A model generated the notes under the pieces. The model was not told the DNA's origin and did no database searches. It saw only the letters and a program-made list of their open reading frames with translations. Below, in pieces: positions 4,560 to 35,000 of a DNA stretch of 35,000 nucleotides. The position numbers and the translations under genes are program-made. Where the stretch lies: the NCBI GenBank assembly GCA_011390645.1, contig JAABRY010000025.1, positions 1 through 35,000 of the forward strand, in the 5' to 3' direction. Numbering within the stretch: position 1 is the first letter of the stretch; each line of letters starts with the position of its first letter. This DNA comes from Gemmatimonadota bacterium. GTDB lineage: Bacteria; Gemmatimonadota; Gemmatimonadetes; Gemmatimonadales; GWC2-71-9.

Positions 4560-4576
4560 GGGGGGAAGCTAGACAC

Positions 4577-4755
4577 CCCAGCCGGCGACGTCAGTCGCCG
4601 GGGGGCGCGGCTCCGCCGCGCGGGGGCGGCGCCAGGCGCCGCGGGGTGAAAGGGGTCGGAATCCCAGCCCCTTTCACCTTTCACCCTGCGCGGCGCAGCC
4701 GCGCCCCGGGCTGGGTCGGGGCCCGGCGGTTGACACCGCCGGCTGGGATGGCTCG
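4577..4755. repeat. Nested palindromic repeat: BIME-like outer hairpins, GC-rich stem-loops and an inner GTGAAAG/CTTTCAC hairpin (site B)
   Basis: Left arm cccagccggcgacgtcagtcgccgg (4577-4601), right arm ccggcggttgacaccgccggctgggatggctcg (4723-4755), inner gtgaaag (4646-4652) facing ctttcacctttcac (4671-4684). Confidence 0.85.
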
Positions 4756-6277: not shown

Positions 6278-6330
6278 CCGGTGGTGTCCTGTCGTTGGAG
6301 GAGTCTCCAAAGGTAGGGGGGCGGCGCCAT

Positions 6331-6407
6331 CCCAGCCGGCGACGTCAGTCGCCGGAGGGGGCCCGGCCGCGAATCCGGCGGTTGACACCGCCGGCTGGGA
6401 TGGCTCG
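6331..6407. repeat. BIME-like palindromic element, compact copy
   Basis: cccagccggcgacgtcagtcgccgg (6331-6355, identical to 4577-4601) and ccggcggttgacaccgccggctgggatggctcg (6375-6407, identical to 4723-4755). Confidence 0.9.
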
Positions 6408-10289: not shown

Positions 10290-10304
10290 GGGGAAAGGTT
10301 AAAG

Positions 10305-10434
10305 GTGAATGGTGAAACGTGAAAGGGACGGAGGGTGAAACGTGAAAGGTGAAACGGGGGTTTGTAGCGAAGCCCTGTGTGCCATGCACCGCAATGGTGC
10401 TCCAGCACCCCCTTTCACCTTTCACCTTTCACCA
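10305..10434. repeat. Heptamer-armed stem-loop, GTGAAAC/G family (site C)
   Basis: Left units gtgaatg 10305, gtgaaac 10312, gtgaaag 10319, then gtgaaac 10335, gtgaaag 10342, gtgaaac 10349; right arm ccccctttcacctttcacctttcacc to about 10433. Confidence 0.85.
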
Positions 10435-12426: not shown

Positions 12427-12462
12427 AGGGGGGGAATATAATGGGATTGGGGGGGCAGGAAG

Positions 12463-12593
12463 GTGAAACGTGAAAGGTGAAACGTGAAACGTGAAAGGTG
12501 AAAGGTGAAACGGGTGTAGGTGGGCCATCGCCCGGCACGGCACGCGGTGGTTCGCGTCGGGCCCCCTTTCACCTTTCACGTTTCACCTTTCAC
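12463..12593. repeat. Heptamer-armed stem-loop, GTGAAAC/G family (site D)
   Basis: Seven consecutive units 12463-12511 (C,G,C,C,G,G,C variants) facing four units ctttcac ctttcac gtttcac ctttcac 12566-12593. Confidence 0.93.
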
Positions 12594-13825
12594 CCAAGCA
12601 CCACCGCCCGCATCACAGATCCCCCTGCGGCCACTCCCTCCCCAGCAGGCACCACCAGCAAGGCGTCGGCGAGGGCCATCGAGGTCAGCAACTGGGAGCC
12701 CTGCGGCCCCGTGAGCGAGGCGAGCGGCCGCCGCCCGGGGCGCGTGGTGAGGGTGCAGCGCTGGTAGAGCTCCAGCGTCGCGTCGCGGGCAACCTCCTCC
12801 GCCACTTCCACGTCGATCGTAGTGGGCTGGACGTCCTGGTGCCCCAGCAGCCGACGGATCGCTGGGCGGACAAAGAGCTGGAAAGTCACCATCGTGCTGA
12901 CCGGGTTGCCCGGGAGACCGAACCACGGCGTGCCCGAGGGGAAGCGTCCGAAGACGGTGGGGCCACCGGGCCGGAGCCGCACCCGATGGAACGCTTCGGT
13001 CACCCCGAGGGCGGCGAGGGCAGGGCGCACGAGGTCGCGATCGCCGACACTCACCCCGCCGGTGGTGATCAGGACGTCGAGCGATTCGCGCTGTGAAAGC
13101 ACCGCCTCCTGGATCGCCATGACGTCATCCACCGCCGGACCGAGCAGGATCGGGATGCCACCCGCTGATCGCACCGAGGCGGCCAGCGACACCGCGTTGG
13201 AGTTGCCGAGTCGTACACCCTGCCGGACGAGGGCGGCCTCTCCCGGTCGGGCCAACTCATCGCCGGTAGCCAGGATGCCGACGCGTGGGGGGGGGATGAC
13301 GGCAACGGACTCCGCACCGAGCGAGGCGAGCACCCCCAACCGAGCCGGCGTGAGCACCGAACCCACGGGGACCGGGACCACCCCTGCACGCACATCACCG
13401 CCCGCGGGACGCACATTCCGCAGGGCATCTCGGATGGAGGTGATGGCGACCGTGTCGCGTCCGAGATCGGTGTCCTCCTGGCGCACGACCGAATCTGTGC
13501 CCACCGGGACGATACCGCCGGTGTAGATGCGCATCGCCGCGCCCGGGGGCAGCGGTGCGGGTATCCCCCCCCCAGCTGCGGCCGTCCCGAGGACCGGCAT
13601 GCGAACGGGGGACGCCGCGGTCGCACCGGCAATCTCCGCGGCACGGACCGCATAGCCATCCATGGCAGCGTTGGGATGCGGTGGTACATCACACGGCGCC
13701 GCGATCGCTTCCATGAGGATCAGCCCGAGCGCCTCGTCAAGCGCCATCCGCCGCTCGGCACCCGGGGGGATGTGGGCGAGTAGCTGCGCCTGCGCCTCGG
13801 CGACGGTGGGTCGGAGGTCAGGCAT
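12590..13825 (-). CDS. moeA: Molybdopterin molybdenumtransferase
   Basis: PPHPNAAMDGYAVRA, IYTGGIVPVGTDSVVRQED, LATGDEL, SNAVSLAASV, TTGGVSVGDRDLV, FGLPGNPVSTMVTFQLFV. Confidence 0.95.
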   Translation of the reverse strand: MPDLRPTVAEAQAQLLAHIPPGAERRMALDEALGLILMEAIAAPCDVPPHPNAAMDGYAVRAAEIAGATAASPVRMPVLGTAAAGGGIPAPLPPGAAMRIYTGGIVPVGTDSVVRQEDTDLGRDTVAITSIRDALRNVRPAGGDVRAGVVPVPVGSVLTPARLGVLASLGAESVAVIPPPRVGILATGDELARPGEAALVRQGVRLGNSNAVSLAASVRSAGGIPILLGPAVDDVMAIQEAVLSQRESLDVLITTGGVSVGDRDLVRPALAALGVTEAFHRVRLRPGGPTVFGRFPSGTPWFGLPGNPVSTMVTFQLFVRPAIRRLLGHQDVQPTTIDVEVAEEVARDATLELYQRCTLTTRPGRRPLASLTGPQGSQLLTSMALADALLVVPAGEGVAAGGSVMRAVVLG

Positions 13826-27286: not shown

Positions 27287-28776
27287 GTCTTGATTCCCTC
27301 GCGGACTTCATTGCCGCCATCGAAAAAGCCGGCGAACTCGTCCGGATCACCCGTCCCGTCCGTACCCATCTGGAGATGGCGGAGATCGCCGATCGCACCA
27401 TGAAGCTCCCCGACGGCGGCCCCGCGCTGCTGTTCGAGAAGCCCCTGATGCCAGATGGTTCGATCTCGCCGATCCCGGTGGGGATCAACCTCTATGGCTC
27501 GCGCAAGCGGATGTGCCTCGCGCTCGGCGTCGAGCGCCTCGATGAAGTCGGCGATCGCATCGCCGAAATGATTCAGCTCAAGGTGCCGGATGGGCTGATG
27601 GGGAAGCTCTCGATGCTCCCCAAGCTGGCCGAGATGGCGAAGTATCCGCCGCGCGTGCGGTCGGGCAAGCCGGCGTGCCAGGAGGTGGTGTATCAGGGGG
27701 ACGACATCAACCTCGACACGCTGCCGATCCTGCAGACCTGGCCGCAGGATGGTGGGCGCTACCTCACCTTGCCGATGGTGATCACGCGCGATCCGAAGAC
27801 CGGTGGCAGGAACGTCGGGATGTATCGCGTGCAGGTGCAGGGGAAGCGCGAGCTGGCGATGCACTGGCAGCGGCACAAGAGCGGGGCCGCGCATTGGCGT
27901 GAGATGGCCGATCGCGGCGAAAAGATGCCGGTGGTGATCGCGCTGGGTGGTGATCCGGCGTCGCTCTACTCGGGCTCCGCGCCATTGCCGCCGATGATCG
28001 ACGAATTCTTGTTCTCGGGTTTCCTGCGGAAGAATCCGGTCGAACTCGCGAAGGCGCTGACGTGTGACCTCGATGTCCCGGCCGAAGCCGACATTGTGAT
28101 CGAAGGCTACGTGGACCCGAGCGAGGATTTGGTGATGGAGGGGCCGTTCGGCGATCACACCGGCTTCTACTCGCTCGCCGACTTGTATCCGCGGATGCAC
28201 ATCACCGCGGTCACAATGAAGAAGAAGCCGATCTATCCGGCCACGCTGGTCGGACGGCCGCCGATGGAGGACTTCTGGCTCGGCCACGCCACCGAGCGGA
28301 TCTTCCTGCCACTGCTGCGCATCACGGTGCCAGAGATCGTGGACTACCACATGCCGGCGGCGGGGATCTTCCACAACCTCGTCTTCGCGAGCATCGACAA
28401 GCAGTATCCGGGGCAGGCCTACAAGGTGATGCACGCGATGTGGGGCACCGGACTGATGTCGCTTTCGAAGGTGCTGGTGATCGTGGACAAGGACGTGAAC
28501 GTGCAGGACGAGCAGGAAGTGTGGTGGGTCGCGCTCAACAACATCGACCCGAAGCGCGACGTCGAGTTCGCGCGTGGCCCGGTGGATGTGCTCGACCACG
28601 CATCGCAGCATTTCTCGTTCGGCAGCAAGATGGGAATTGATGCGACACGGAAGTGGCCCGAGGAAGGGTTCACGCGCGAGTGGCCCGAGAAGATCGTGAT
28701 GGATGATGCGACGAAGGACGCGGTGGACAAGATGTGGGGGGAGTTGGGGATCGGGGCGGTGAAACGTGAGAGGTGA
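27283..28776 (+). CDS. ubiD: UbiD family decarboxylase (MqnL/UbiD-like)
   Basis: UbiD-family sequence (LYGSRKRMCLALGV, EGPFGDHTGFYS, MEDFWLGHATERIFLPLLRITVPEIVDYHMPAAG, WWVALNNIDPKRDVEF); ATGA overlap with menG. Confidence 0.93.
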   Translation: MSLDSLADFIAAIEKAGELVRITRPVRTHLEMAEIADRTMKLPDGGPALLFEKPLMPDGSISPIPVGINLYGSRKRMCLALGVERLDEVGDRIAEMIQLKVPDGLMGKLSMLPKLAEMAKYPPRVRSGKPACQEVVYQGDDINLDTLPILQTWPQDGGRYLTLPMVITRDPKTGGRNVGMYRVQVQGKRELAMHWQRHKSGAAHWREMADRGEKMPVVIALGGDPASLYSGSAPLPPMIDEFLFSGFLRKNPVELAKALTCDLDVPAEADIVIEGYVDPSEDLVMEGPFGDHTGFYSLADLYPRMHITAVTMKKKPIYPATLVGRPPMEDFWLGHATERIFLPLLRITVPEIVDYHMPAAGIFHNLVFASIDKQYPGQAYKVMHAMWGTGLMSLSKVLVIVDKDVNVQDEQEVWWVALNNIDPKRDVEFARGPVDVLDHASQHFSFGSKMGIDATRKWPEEGFTREWPEKIVMDDATKDAVDKMWGELGIGAVKRER

Positions 28777-28826
28777 AACGGGTGGGGAGGGTGGCAGCAC
28801 GCCCCCTTTCACGTTTCACGTTTCAC
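28759..28826. repeat. Heptamer-armed stem-loop across the ubiD-ubiA junction (site E)
   Basis: gtgaaac 28759, gtgagag 28766, gtgaaac 28773 facing ctttcac 28806, gtttcac 28813, gtttcac 28820. Confidence 0.9.
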
Positions 28827-29719
28827 CCGGCACCCCCGAAGGCCAAACCTTCACCGGCGCCTCGGCCCTCTCCCGCTGGGCGAGCTTCGTCAAGCTCCCC
28901 CACACCCTCTTTGCGCTGCCGTTTGCGATGCTGGGTGTGCTGGCCGCGAGCATGGTCGCACCGGTGACCTGGCGCGTGGTGTTGTGGGTAGCGGTGGCGT
29001 TCAGCGCGGCGCGCTTCGCCGCGATGGGCTTCAACCGGATTGTGGACCGCGGCTTCGACGCCGCCAACCCGCGCACCGCCGCGCGCGAGCTGCCGCGCGG
29101 CGCAATCGGAGTAGGTCAGGCCAAGGTTGCCGTTGTGCTCGCGAGCATCCTGTTTGTGGTCGCAAGCTGGCAGTTGAATCCGCTTTGTCTGGTGCTCTCG
29201 CCCGTCGCACTCGCGTGGGTGTTGGGGTACTCGTATGCGAAGCGCTTCACCTCGTGGCCGCACCTCTGGCTCGGGATGTCGCTCGCGATCGCCCCGGTTG
29301 GTGGTTGGTTGGCAGTCACGGGCGCATGGAGCGAGCCTTGGTGGCTGCTGCTGGTGATCACGCTGGCGGTGATGACCTGGGTGGCAGGCTTCGATGTGTT
29401 CTACGCGCTGCCTGATGAAGGCTTTGATCGTGACCAGGGCTTGCGCAGCGCGGTGGTGCGCCTAGGGCAGCGGAAGGCGATTCTGTTCGGCAAGCTGCTG
29501 CACGGGGTGACGATCCCCGCGTTGGCACTCTTCGGCTGGGGCGCGGGATTCGGTCTCTGGTATTTCATCGGGGTTGGCGCAGCGGCCGCGATTCTGGCGT
29601 ATGAGCACCAATTGGTGCAACCAGGTGATCTTTCCAAGCTCGATGCCGCGTTCTTCACGATGAACGGCGTGATGAGCGTGACGGTGTTTGGGTTCGCGGT
29701 GGTGGATAGGCTGGTGTAG
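28766..29719 (+). CDS. ubiA: UbiA-family prenyltransferase (MqnP/UbiA-like)
   Basis: WASFVKLPHTLFALPFAMLG, AARFAAMGFNRIVDRGFDAANPRTAARELPRG, YSYAKRFTSWPHLWLG, AGFDVFYALPDEGFDRDQGLRSAVVRLG; only candidate start is GTG 28766 within the repeat. Confidence 0.9.
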   Translation: MRGETGGEGGSTPPFTFHVSPGTPEGQTFTGASALSRWASFVKLPHTLFALPFAMLGVLAASMVAPVTWRVVLWVAVAFSAARFAAMGFNRIVDRGFDAANPRTAARELPRGAIGVGQAKVAVVLASILFVVASWQLNPLCLVLSPVALAWVLGYSYAKRFTSWPHLWLGMSLAIAPVGGWLAVTGAWSEPWWLLLVITLAVMTWVAGFDVFYALPDEGFDRDQGLRSAVVRLGQRKAILFGKLLHGVTIPALALFGWGAGFGLWYFIGVGAAAAILAYEHQLVQPGDLSKLDAAFFTMNGVMSVTVFGFAVVDRLV

Positions 29720-29723
29720 CTGG

Positions 29724-29927
29724 GTGAACGGTGAACGGTGAACGGTGAACGGGGGGTGAGGCCACAGGATGTCATCCCGACCGGAGCGGCGGCGAAGCCG
29801 TCGCGCAGCGGAGGGATCTGCACGTTGCCGGGCCCAGTGAAGTACAGATCCCTCGACTCCGGCGCTACGCGCCTTCGCTCGGGATGACGGGGTCAGGCAC
29901 CCCCCGTTCACCGTTCACCGTTCACCG
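29724..29927. repeat. Heptamer-armed stem-loop, GTGAACG family, enclosing a CATCCCGA palindrome (site F)
   Basis: Four gtgaacg units 29724-29751 facing three cgttcac units 29905-29925; inner gtcatcccgaccggagc...gagggatctg / agatccctcgactccggcg...cgctcgggatgac 29771-29888. Confidence 0.93.
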
Positions 29928-29948
29928 TAACAGGAGTCCTGAATAACG

Positions 29949-31158: not shown

Positions 31159-31800
31159 GTGCACGCACCCCGCATTCTTGTTGCCGCTTCCCTCCTGCTC
31201 GCACCGGCGGCCGTTGCCGCCCAGTTCCAGTCGGGTGCCTCCTCGTGGATCACCTCCCCGACCGGCGAGATCACCTTCGCCGGGCTCGCCGACGAGGTGG
31301 TGATCACCGATCAGTATCTGGCCAGTGACGGCGTCCTCTTCACCAACCTCGAGGGCAACACCGCGACGAGCTCGGTGTTCACCGCACCGTACGCCCTCAA
31401 CTGGCTCGGGTCGCAGCCGTGGCAACCAATTGGCATCACCTTCTCGTCACCGATCGCCAGTCTGGCGTTCCTGGGGCGAGCCAATACCGGCTCGGCGTTT
31501 TTCGAGGCCTTCCTCGCCGACGCCCCGGTATTCTCCGGCTTCCTGGATATCGAGCCGCAAGCGCTCCGATGGTTCGGCTTCGAGGGCGCCAACGTCGACC
31601 GCATCCGGATGACGGCGCCGAGCGGCACCAACGGATTGATCGCGATCGACAACGTGCAGTGGCTCAACGCGAGCCTCATCGATGACGACCCGCCGGTCGG
31701 CGGCGATGTGGTGCCGGAGCCGGCGACGATGACGCTGCTCGCGACGGGGATGGCAGGGCTGCTGGCGGCACGGCGGCGGAAGCGGGGTCGTGAGTCGTGA
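31159..31800 (+). CDS. PEP-CTERM sorting-domain protein 1
   Basis: Signal peptide MHAPRILVAASLLLAPAAVAA; C-terminal VPEPATMTLLATGMAGLLAARRRKRG tripartite PEP-CTERM signal. Confidence 0.9.
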   Translation: MHAPRILVAASLLLAPAAVAAQFQSGASSWITSPTGEITFAGLADEVVITDQYLASDGVLFTNLEGNTATSSVFTAPYALNWLGSQPWQPIGITFSSPIASLAFLGRANTGSAFFEAFLADAPVFSGFLDIEPQALRWFGFEGANVDRIRMTAPSGTNGLIAIDNVQWLNASLIDDDPPVGGDVVPEPATMTLLATGMAGLLAARRRKRGRES

Positions 31801-31919
31801 GAAGAAGCGTGAAAGGTGAAACGTGAAAGGGGATGTATCCCTTCCTCCCGTTTCACCTTTCACCTTTTGCGTTTCACGACCTACGACCTACGACCCACGA
31901 CCCACGACGAGTCACGACA
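31787..31919. repeat. Compound heptamer-armed stem-loop, GTCGTGA + GTGAAAC/G families (site H)
   Basis: Left units gtcgtga, gtcgtga, gaagaag, cgtgaaa, ggtgaaa, cgtgaaa in one register 31787-31828; right gtttcac 31850 ... gtttcac 31871, gacctac x2, gacccac x2 to 31905, degenerate to 31919. Confidence 0.93.
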
Positions 31920-32181
31920 GCGAACCACGGACTGTCGCATCAATGGCACAACGTGTGAAGCCACCGCTACAGATTCCTTCGGTGTGCATTGTCTGCGGCA
32001 ATCGGTAACAGACTCCTTGGCAACACCTTGCAGGGTTCTTCTCGCGCTGTCACGTCGCGGAACGAATCGTGCTTCAATGAGGGTGTTCCCAGCCAGCTCC
32101 GCGCTCGATACGCCCCCTCGACGGGATTGTCACACCCTCAGGTGATGATTCCGGTCACACATCCCTTCCAGGAGTTCTCTC

Positions 32182-32877
32182 GTGAAGCTGTTCCGCTACC
32201 GTGCGCTCGTTCCCATGTTCTTGGTGGCATTCGCCGCCCCGCTCGCTGCACAGGTTGGTGTTGGTCCGAATGGCACCTTCGGCTCGATCGACACCGAGTT
32301 CGGGGGCGATGGCATTCCCAATGACGCCGTGATGACGAGCCTGTATGACGGAGTGACGATCGGCATCACCGCCACCGAGCGCTACGCCAGTCCCGCTGTG
32401 ACGAACAATGGGGCCGGGATCTTCTACGCCGGAGCTGGGGAGAGCGACCCGGGATTCTCACTGTGGAACTTCAGCTATTACATCGGCGGCACCAACGCGA
32501 ACGACTACGTCTACCGCCTCTTCTATGACTTCGACCCGGCCGCCGGCAACGGTGGTCATGGTGTCCTCGAGACACCAACCCTCGCGATCCTCGGGTTCGA
32601 GGAATCGCAGAACCTGGGCTTCAGCTACCTCGGAACTTCTATCGCCGGGTTCCTGACTGCCCCGACCTACGCCGGTTTCAACCCCAATGCCAGTGGCAGT
32701 TACACCTTCGGGCTGCACCAGTACAACAGCGCGCAGGAACTGGTCGGGCTTGTCGGGATGGAAGTCATCGTCGGCGATGGCCCAGGTGAGGTCGTCCCCG
32801 AACCCGCCACGATGACGTTGCTCGCCACCGGCCTGGCTGGCATGGTCGCGGCACGGCGTCGGCGGAAGGCTGTGTAG
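32182..32877 (+). CDS. PEP-CTERM sorting-domain protein 2
   Basis: Signal peptide MKLFRYRALVPMFLVAFAAPLAAQ; C-terminal VVPEPATMTLLATGLAGMVAARRRRKAV. Confidence 0.9.
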   Translation: MKLFRYRALVPMFLVAFAAPLAAQVGVGPNGTFGSIDTEFGGDGIPNDAVMTSLYDGVTIGITATERYASPAVTNNGAGIFYAGAGESDPGFSLWNFSYYIGGTNANDYVYRLFYDFDPAAGNGGHGVLETPTLAILGFEESQNLGFSYLGTSIAGFLTAPTYAGFNPNASGSYTFGLHQYNSAQELVGLVGMEVIVGDGPGEVVPEPATMTLLATGLAGMVAARRRRKAV

Positions 32878-32880
32878 TCA

Positions 32881-33044
32881 GTCGTGAGTCGTGAGACGTT
32901 AGACGCTGGGGAAAACATGAAAGGTGAAACGTGAAAGGGGATGTATCCCTTCCTCCCGTTTCACCTTTCACGTTTCACGACCTACGACCTACGACCTACG
33001 ACCTACGACCTACGACCTACGACCTACGACCTACGACCTACGAC
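32881..33044. repeat. Compound heptamer-armed stem-loop with nine GACCTAC units (site I)
   Basis: Left eight 7-nt units 32881-32936; right gtttcac 32958, ctttcac 32965, gtttcac 32972, then gacctac x9 32979-33041. Confidence 0.95.
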
Positions 33045-33559: not shown

Positions 33560-33623
33560 CGGAGGGAGGCGGCCATCTGTTTCACCTCGCAACGTTTCGC
33601 TGCTGAAACGTGGGGTCGGGGAT

Positions 33624-33730
33624 GTTGGATATTGGATATTGGATGTTGGAACTAATTGTCATCCCGAGCGACGCGAGGGATCGGGGTGAGAAGGTCTCGC
33701 GTCCTTCTCCAACATCCAACATCCAACATC
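33624..33730. repeat. Heptamer-armed stem-loop, GTTGGAT family, enclosing a CATCCCGAG element (site J)
   Basis: gttggat 33624, attggat 33631, attggat 33638, gttgga 33645 facing ctccaac 33707, atccaac 33714, atccaac 33721; inner gtcatcccgagcgacgcgagggatc. Confidence 0.92.
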
Positions 33731-33732
33731 TC

Positions 33733-34815
33733 CTAGCCGCTAGCAGGCGTCACCCGCCGCCACGCCTCCGGCCGATTCCTGAACCAGCTCATCACCAGCA
33801 TCCGCTGATGCAACCGTTCCGGCGGCACCCTTCCGGGCGGCTCGATCGGCTTGGCCATCTCCTCCGCCACCACCGCGTTGAACGCCTCGCGCTCGATCGG
33901 GGACACCGGGTCTGGATAGCAGGCGCGGATCTCGCCGCGGACGATCAGGTAGGCGCGGGCGTCGCCACGGGCTCCCGGGTCGCGATACACGAAGGTCAGC
34001 GCGTCGAGGGCGCTGCGATGCCGCGCCACGGCCGCCAGGAGCCACTCGAGCGCCTCGAACTTGTCGCGCCAGTGCGCGGCGCGCTCGAAGTCCCCCGCTG
34101 CGGCACGCTCGCTCATCTCGCGGATGATCCGCTCGAACGGGGCAACACTCCGCCCCTCGCAGAAGGCGGCGGCGAGGTCGGCCCGTGCCCGGTACGCTGC
34201 CTCGGTAATCGCCCCGGCGCACGGCGCGCCGCAGGTGCCGAAGTCGAGCCGCGGGCAGGCCGCGCGCATCGGGGCCGCGAAGAGGTCCTGCTGCTCGGCG
34301 TAGTGGATCGGCATGTCCACGCGGCAATCGCGGATACCGAGCTGGTCCATCAGCACCCGCGCGGCCCGGTGCGTGGCACCACGTGAGGGAAAGGGGCCGT
34401 AGATCCGCCCGCGGAGCCGGTCGGGGTTGGCGGTGGCGACGAGCCGAGGGGCGCGATCGTCGGTGACCACGAGGAAGCCGTGCTTCCGGTTCCGGTTCAT
34501 CGCCACGTTGTAGGGAGGGCGGTGCTTCCGGATCAGCTCCAGCTCCTGCAGCGCCGCCGCGAACTCGCTCGGCGCGGGACTGATCTCGATGTTGCTCGCC
34601 GCATGCAGGATCCGGGCGGCCTTGTCCTCGGGGAACGAGGCCCGGAAGTACGAGAGGAGCCGGGTCCGGAGCGCCTTGGCCTTGCCGACGTAGAGCACGC
34701 GGCCAGCCGCATCGACCATCCGGTAGGTGCCGGGGCGGTCATCGGCGAGCTTGCGCACCCGGAAGCGGAGCGCTTCGAGGTCGGTGGCAGGGAGGGCGAG
34801 CGCGAGGGAGCGCAT
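33733..34815 (-). CDS. GIY-YIG/UvrC-like protein lacking the UvrC C-terminal nuclease region
   Basis: GTYRMVDAAGRVLYVGKAKALRTRLLSYF (GIY-YIG), LIRKHRPPYNVAMNRNRKHGFLVV, IYGPFPS, CPRLDFGTCGAPCAG, AAAGDFERAAHWRDKFEALEWL (UVR motif); ends at ~360 aa. Confidence 0.85.
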   Translation of the reverse strand: MRSLALALPATDLEALRFRVRKLADDRPGTYRMVDAAGRVLYVGKAKALRTRLLSYFRASFPEDKAARILHAASNIEISPAPSEFAAALQELELIRKHRPPYNVAMNRNRKHGFLVVTDDRAPRLVATANPDRLRGRIYGPFPSRGATHRAARVLMDQLGIRDCRVDMPIHYAEQQDLFAAPMRAACPRLDFGTCGAPCAGAITEAAYRARADLAAAFCEGRSVAPFERIIREMSERAAAGDFERAAHWRDKFEALEWLLAAVARHRSALDALTFVYRDPGARGDARAYLIVRGEIRACYPDPVSPIEREAFNAVVAEEMAKPIEPPGRVPPERLHQRMLVMSWFRNRPEAWRRVTPASG

Positions 34816-34855
34816 GTGGGAAGATAGTGGCGGCGGGCGGGGTGCCCGCTGGGAT

Positions 34856-34947
34856 GTTGGATATTGGATGTTGGATGTTGGAGGGGGCTGTCGTGGTGGA
34901 CGGCCCCTACTCCCGTGACGAACTTCCAACATCCAACATCCAACATC
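34856..34947. repeat. Heptamer-armed stem-loop, GTTGGAT family (site K)
   Basis: gttggat 34856, attggat 34863, gttggat 34870, gttggag 34877 facing ttccaac 34924, atccaac 34931, atccaac 34938. Confidence 0.92.
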
Positions 34948-35000
34948 ACAACTGCAACTGCGCGCCGAGCTCCACCACCCTATTCGGCGGCAGCCCGAAG
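34946..35000 (-). CDS. C-terminus of an unidentified protein (possibly outer-membrane receptor), partial
   Basis: Reverse strand reads FGLPPNRVVELGAQLQL* with stop at 34946-34948; too short for firm identification. Confidence 0.4.
   Translation of the reverse strand, partial: FGLPPNRVVELGAQLQL

Follow-up and report, generated by a model that had tools for sequence, protein, structure and literature searches.

Heptamers are a favoured length of tandem repeats in many bacteria. Among the closest described systems are the GGGAATC / GGGGA(T/C)T heptameric repeats of Xanthomonas and Nostoc, which consist of tandem 7-nt G-rich units with a mostly intergenic location (PMC4692102). In Xanthomonas about 70 convergent inverted pairs per genome were reported, with more repeats between convergent (16%) than between divergent (7-8%) ORFs, and the locations are largely conserved between species, lengths differing; one unit family was described per genome studied, with GGG tracts able to form quadruplexes (PMC4692102). 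Beggiatoaceae and some cyanobacteria have another set, the TAACTGA repeats, 7-nt tandem intergenic units whose sets are sometimes split by related 7-mers and which are found mostly upstream of start codons, in direct orientation with a single inverted case, and with one unit across lineages (PMC4679880). Chloroflexus aurantiacus has heptamer satellites, (GATAGRA)n among them (PMC6749651). An excess of heptanucleotide repeats has also been reported for bacteria, with polymerase slippage as the proposed cause (cited in PMC4679880).

The window, which is the whole analysed stretch of 35,000 nucleotides, is part of contig C116 of a Gemmatimonadota MAG (2.93 Mb, 86% complete), and the named relatives compared with it are also Gemmatimonadota MAGs. 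Fifteen period-7 segments are present in the window versus none at periods 5, 6, 8, and 9, a number well above chance expectation, and a search of the window against Rfam 15 at the gathering score gave no match. The heptamer-armed hairpins of the window are listed in Table 1.

Table 1. Heptamer-armed hairpins of the window, with the unit composition of sites H and I.
Feature	Positions	Strand	Details
Site C, GTGAAAC/G hairpin	10293..10433	+	2-nt register break within left arm
GTGAAAC/G hairpin	12458..12596	+	
GTGAAAC hairpin, ubiD-ubiA gap	28758..28835	+	
GGTGAAC hairpin, ubiA-ubiX gap	29718..29932	+	31-nt arms fully complementary; TGTCATCCCGACC-type insert in loop
Site H left arm	31787..31828	+	six units: GTCGTGA x2, degenerate GAAGAAG, CGTGAAA, GGTGAAA, CGTGAAA
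Site H loop	31829..31849	+	GGGGATGTATCCCTTCCTCCC, 21 nt; site I loop identical
Site H right arm	31850..31905	+	eight units: GTTTCAC, CTTTCAC, CTTTTGC, GTTTCAC, GACCTAC x2, GACCCAC x2
Site I left arm	32881..32936	+	eight units: GTCGTGA x2, four degenerate, GGTGAAA, CGTGAAA
Site I loop	32937..32957	+	sequence as site H loop
Site I right arm	32958..33041	+	twelve units: GTTTCAC, CTTTCAC, GTTTCAC, GACCTAC x9
GGATATT/GGATGTT hairpin	33616..33735	+	
GGATGTT hairpin, 5' side of uvrC-like gene	34849..34953	+	

One composite heptamer-armed hairpin is present twice, as sites H and I. The element cores of the two sites are identical, the flanks are non-homologous, and the PEP-CTERM host genes share only 38% protein identity; therefore the composite was copied whole, and the two sites have to be counted as one event rather than as independent ones. 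Recent tandem duplication of gene and element together was rejected on the same 38% identity. Between the shared anchors the left arm of I exceeds that of H by 14 nt (two units), the CTTTTGC unit of the H right arm is missing from I, and I has extra GACCTAC units. In RNA folding the arms of H pair with -59.9 kcal/mol (z -6.9), and the I hairpin reaches -53.2 kcal/mol (z -5.3). Further core-sharing pairs also differ by whole units: in one of them (L042) the right-hand linkers are 14 and 7 nt, and in two more one arm differs by 7 and 21 nt; these pairs are few and were judged by eye, and in arrays of this kind an aligner tends to place gaps of 7 nt. When all core-sharing pairs were aligned automatically, most alignments told little, since the arrays fit one another at every multiple of 7.

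The PEP-CTERM ORF upstream of H (31159-31800) has its stop codon at 31798-31800, inside the left arm; GTCGTGAGTCGTGA at window positions 31786-31800 encodes the final residues with the stop codon, which looks as though the original end of the gene had been replaced by the element, and at site I the stop TAG immediately precedes the array. A palindromic TGTCATCCCGAGCG...CGGGATGACA repeat lies inside heptamer-hairpin loops at window positions 29760-29890 and 33650-33700, and it is found in hairpin loops at L054:4420-4560, L036:8530-8640, and L223:18490-18610; since the arms around it belong to different families, arms and loop contents have been combined freely. A second family of hairpins, CCAGCCGGCGACGTCAGTCGCCGG / CCGGCGGTTGACACCGCCGGCTGGGATGG, has no heptamers and is present in two copies in the window, at 4571-4753 and 6326-6404.

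Beyond the window, H and I belong to a large set of intergenic hairpins with tandem 7-nt arms, the G-rich arm first, which often start from a stop codon. In 1.32 Mb read from this genome 265 period-7 arrays were found versus 0-20 at other non-multiple periods, and as many of the contigs were chosen for matches to the GACCTAC array, this sample is biased and its array density must not be taken as that of the genome as a whole. The one genome contains at least nine unit families, mostly with GG only, and period 7 is dominant across array-bearing genomes with differing unit sequences. The G-rich (purine-rich) arm comes first in all 63 oriented inverted pairs of the own genome, in 9/9 pairs in regions of relatives, and in 18/19 pairs in 80 Gemmatimonadota loci; the overall figure is 90/92 inverted pairs. 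This polarity was likewise noticed as nearly universal in every genome, whatever the unit, in loci L142-L221 and the relatives. According to a simple home-made gene finder only 3/263 arrays lie inside predicted genes, and arrays occupy 52/125 convergent, 93/755 tandem, and 12/109 divergent gaps. In tandem gaps the stop codon of the upstream gene marks the start of the array (median -1 nt), which lies nearer to that stop than to the next start in 75 of the 93 cases.

The same gene gaps were then compared in relatives, where the ubi genes were placed with Pfam and tblastn. In the ubiD-ubiA gap the arms are built of GTGAAAC here, GGATGAT in G004, GAGACGA in G003, CGTGAGA in G009, and GGGAACA in G005, and no array is found in the compact gaps of G007 and G013. 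In the ubiA-ubiX gap they are built of GGTGAAC here and in G018, GATGACA/T in G004, GGAGACC in G003, GGATGAT in G005, and GAGACGA in G001, the gap of G007 being 8 nt; on the 5' side of the uvrC-like gene GGATGTT here corresponds to GAGAAGG in G004, GGAGAGA in G005, and GAGACGA in G009. The ubiA-ubiX gap carries an array in 17 of 74 Gemmatimonadota loci, and gaps without an array are mostly of 48 nt or less. Within the array-bearing clade with ubiA DNA identity of 0.78-0.91 the units of this gap differ by 0-3 substitutions. Coincidence of arrays at orthologous gaps (6 shared, odds ratio 9.6, p = 0.007) comes from a small and non-independent sample in which two gaps were reused. In distant species arrays may have been inserted repeatedly and independently right after the stop codon at orthologous gaps; the orthologous flanks are too diverged to reveal a target-site duplication. 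In the ubiA-ubiX gap of G009 (L127:1527-2670) many copies of a TGTCACCCTGAGCG palindrome surround an apparent reverse-strand reading frame, which may encode a putative GIY-YIG protein.

The stem of the ubiA-ubiX gap in four MAGs (L151, L152, L182, and L213) gives a gap-free alignment of 31 nt per arm, and 119 of its 124 cells are paired. Compensatory changes are present at five positions, 1, 8, 15, 22, and 29, that is, at one unit position every 7 nt, and when the partners were slid by 1-3 nt as a control at most one compensatory position was left. Arm register and unit number are constant in this orthologous stem, and the units change together on both arms. In L152 the left arm still ends in AATGG, with which the unit of the other species begins, although the full units are of ATTGCGG type. 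As far as one site in four MAGs can indicate, this stem is the best evidence that the spacing may persist while both arms change.

Probably, these features, the polarity aside, are best covered by a reading in which H and I are copies and in which gain and loss of 7-nt units, homogenisation between the arms, and copying between sites act together. Judging from the differences between species, units would be gained or lost in 7-nt steps via replication slippage or unequal exchange, and a changed unit would spread along and between the arms, one arm templating the other, possibly through template switching at a hairpin or cruciform. Between sites, elements and units would also be copied, so that each genome would come to hold its own set of families. 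The resulting hairpins would be tolerated, and perhaps kept, as structured 3' ends of mRNA; a role at gene ends is possible.

If such a role were the primary cause, the hairpins would be selected gene-end signals, either bidirectional terminators or stabilisers of 3' ends, with pairing kept while the sequence drifts. The starts at stop codons, the enrichment in convergent gaps and the low rate in divergent ones, the strong stems, and the compensatory changes described above are all consistent with this explanation, which we regard as possible though rather unlikely. The location by itself could be yielded by promoter avoidance, and part of it can be attributed to avoidance of promoters and ribosome sites. 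Moreover, a T-tract does not follow the stem, since TTTT was found within 15 nt of only 4/264 right arms, and terminator-like sites in the window do not exceed the shuffled level; mean T content is 0.184 near right arms versus 0.165 genome-wide. On the lack of the T-tract the identity with intrinsic terminators was rejected. It also speaks against gene-end signals that hairpins stand within the ubiD-ubiA-ubiX gene run, and that selection for pairing alone leaves the period of 7 and the same change in every unit unexplained.

REP/REPIN elements, which go with RAYT transposases, are short palindromes that occur in many copies between genes, often on the downstream side of a gene. It can be imagined by analogy that the hairpins are selfish MITE- or REPIN-like elements with heptamer arrays as terminal inverted repeats, moved by a transposase, the families at orthologous gaps being independent insertions. 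The copying of H and I into unrelated flanks, the contrast of the compact array-free gaps of G007 and G013 with arrays elsewhere, the recurrence of one TGTCATCCCGA insert in loops with different arms, and the presence of one Y1_Tnp gene in the genome would fit this explanation, but it is unlikely. Unlike in REP/REPIN elements, tandem 7-mers in variable number form the arms here, and the hairpins on either side of the lone Y1_Tnp gene are of another kind and not heptameric; this gene with its flanking hairpins looks like a separate REP/RAYT pair. Arrays and Y1_Tnp do not co-occur among genomes: array-bearing G009 gave no Y1_Tnp match at 98% completeness, and in G013, which has a Y1_Tnp gene, the 7.7 kb that were read contain no array. 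A RAYT as the mover was rejected on both grounds. Also, the in-register compensated change in the orthologous stem is unexpected from independent insertions. The lone Y1_Tnp gene lies at L262:1290-2060 (G000:C30), and the hairpin family around it is GTCGCTAAAGCGAC...GCCGAGCC.

A bolder reading would assume that Gemmatimonadota have a dedicated process with a true 7-nt step. It would write and rewrite the unit arrays in both arms of gene-end hairpins, and position, period, and polarity would thereby be maintained throughout the phylum while the unit sets change in each genome; this we consider doubtful.

The initial annotation proposed that the 7-nt register is kept where one unit family passes into another, with H and I as examples. 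The units of both sites are indeed as written there, and the single 2-nt break assigned to site C was confirmed by reading (GGTGAAACGTGAAA, a 9-nt linker, then GGTGAAA). As evidence for a rule H and I do not serve, being one event. Because they descend from one founding composite, their register is inherited and was changed only by whole-unit steps and point decay. In the right arms of both GTTTCAC abuts GACCTAC without a linker, and where units abut, a cut "in register" is always available because unlike families have no common phase; the phase between unlike units being arbitrary, only the recurrence of one offset at independent junctions is informative.

The annotation's own check, a comparison of junction offsets with multiples of 7, was made on 56 junctions of nine unit families in 1.32 Mb of this MAG and went against the rule, which was rejected on these offsets. 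Offsets from 0 to 6 were found 15, 11, 6, 15, 3, 3, and 3 times, respectively. This distribution deviates from uniform (p = 0.002 after deduplication), but the excess comes from very short linkers of 0, 3, 4, 7, and 8 nt, and with linkers of more than 8 nt no departure from uniformity is seen (p = 0.41). Of the cross-family junctions that have a linker, 9/50 are in register (chance 1/7, p = 0.28), and the family pair of H and I (GGTCGTA with GTGAAA) uses six of the seven offsets (0, 1, 2, 3, 4, and 6) over 17 junctions. When the whole assembly was scanned for TTTCAC with a GACCTAC array after it within 28 nt, 12 places were found, with offsets 0, 0, 0, 0, 1, 1, 2, 4, 4, 5, 5, and 6; H and I supply two of the four zeros, and when they are counted once 3/11 are left (p = 0.20). 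Offset 3 from GGTCGTA to CGTGAAA can be produced by the CGT common to both units. Of four junctions from GTCGTT to GTCGTA, three combine a linker of 3 with an offset of 3 (AGA, AGG, or GGG before GGTCGTA), possibly as one composite copied several times.

Thus a strict register held across family changes, for example by a factor which reads 7-nt steps regardless of sequence, is very improbable and already mostly refuted, although the H and I units, the overall non-uniform offsets, and several directly joined arrays in a common GG phase (GGTCGCA with GGATGTT, GGCGAAC with GGTGAAC) could be cited for it. Interrupted arrays of the same family behave otherwise: 9/16 of them in the 1.32 Mb are in register (p = 0.0001), with a linker of exactly 7 nt in 8/16. 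Decayed units keep the register, family junctions do not. The further suggestion that the spacing itself is what is produced or selected loses its argument from junctions, but the wider idea that the 7-nt step outlives the unit sequence is supported independently by the dominance of period 7, the different 7-mers at orthologous gaps, the concerted stem, and these same-family interruptions.

Two last explanations can be dismissed briefly. A templated enzyme, such as a telomerase-like or retron-like reverse transcriptase, writing the arrays from a 7-nt template is hardly credible. The likeness of the G-rich tandem 7-mers to templated repeats would speak for it, though it goes no further than the outline. 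The at least nine families of one genome would need as many templates, and an RVT_1 match was not found in this 86% complete genome. It is just as implausible that the arrays are artefacts of MAG assembly, in which repeats like H and I can be mis-joined, since many independent assemblies show the same architecture with different units, among them those of G004 and G009 with about 10 contigs.

The same gene gaps can be compared here across species in which the 7-nt step is retained and the unit differs. This makes it possible to separate spacing from sequence, and it becomes a testable question whether the 7 is set by slippage, by copying between arms, or by a binding factor. The natural series of compensated stems right after stop codons is also useful for testing how hairpins act at mRNA ends.

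In the literature search no paper was found on such heptamer hairpins in Gemmatimonadota. They are similar to the Xanthomonas type in the enrichment of period 7, the mainly intergenic location, and the convergent inverted pairs; they differ from it in having at least nine families per genome, mostly with GG only, instead of a single family with GGG tracts, as well as in nested families within one hairpin and different units at orthologous sites. The TAACTGA repeats are alike as 7-nt intergenic tandem units, but they sit mostly before start codons and, apart from a single inverted case, are direct repeats. With the Chloroflexus satellites and the general heptanucleotide excess the preference for 7 nt is common, while paired hairpin arms and unit turnover between species are not described in the available parts of these sources. 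In comparison with the known heptameric repeats, what is new here is the number of families per genome, their nesting, and the turnover of units at fixed places.
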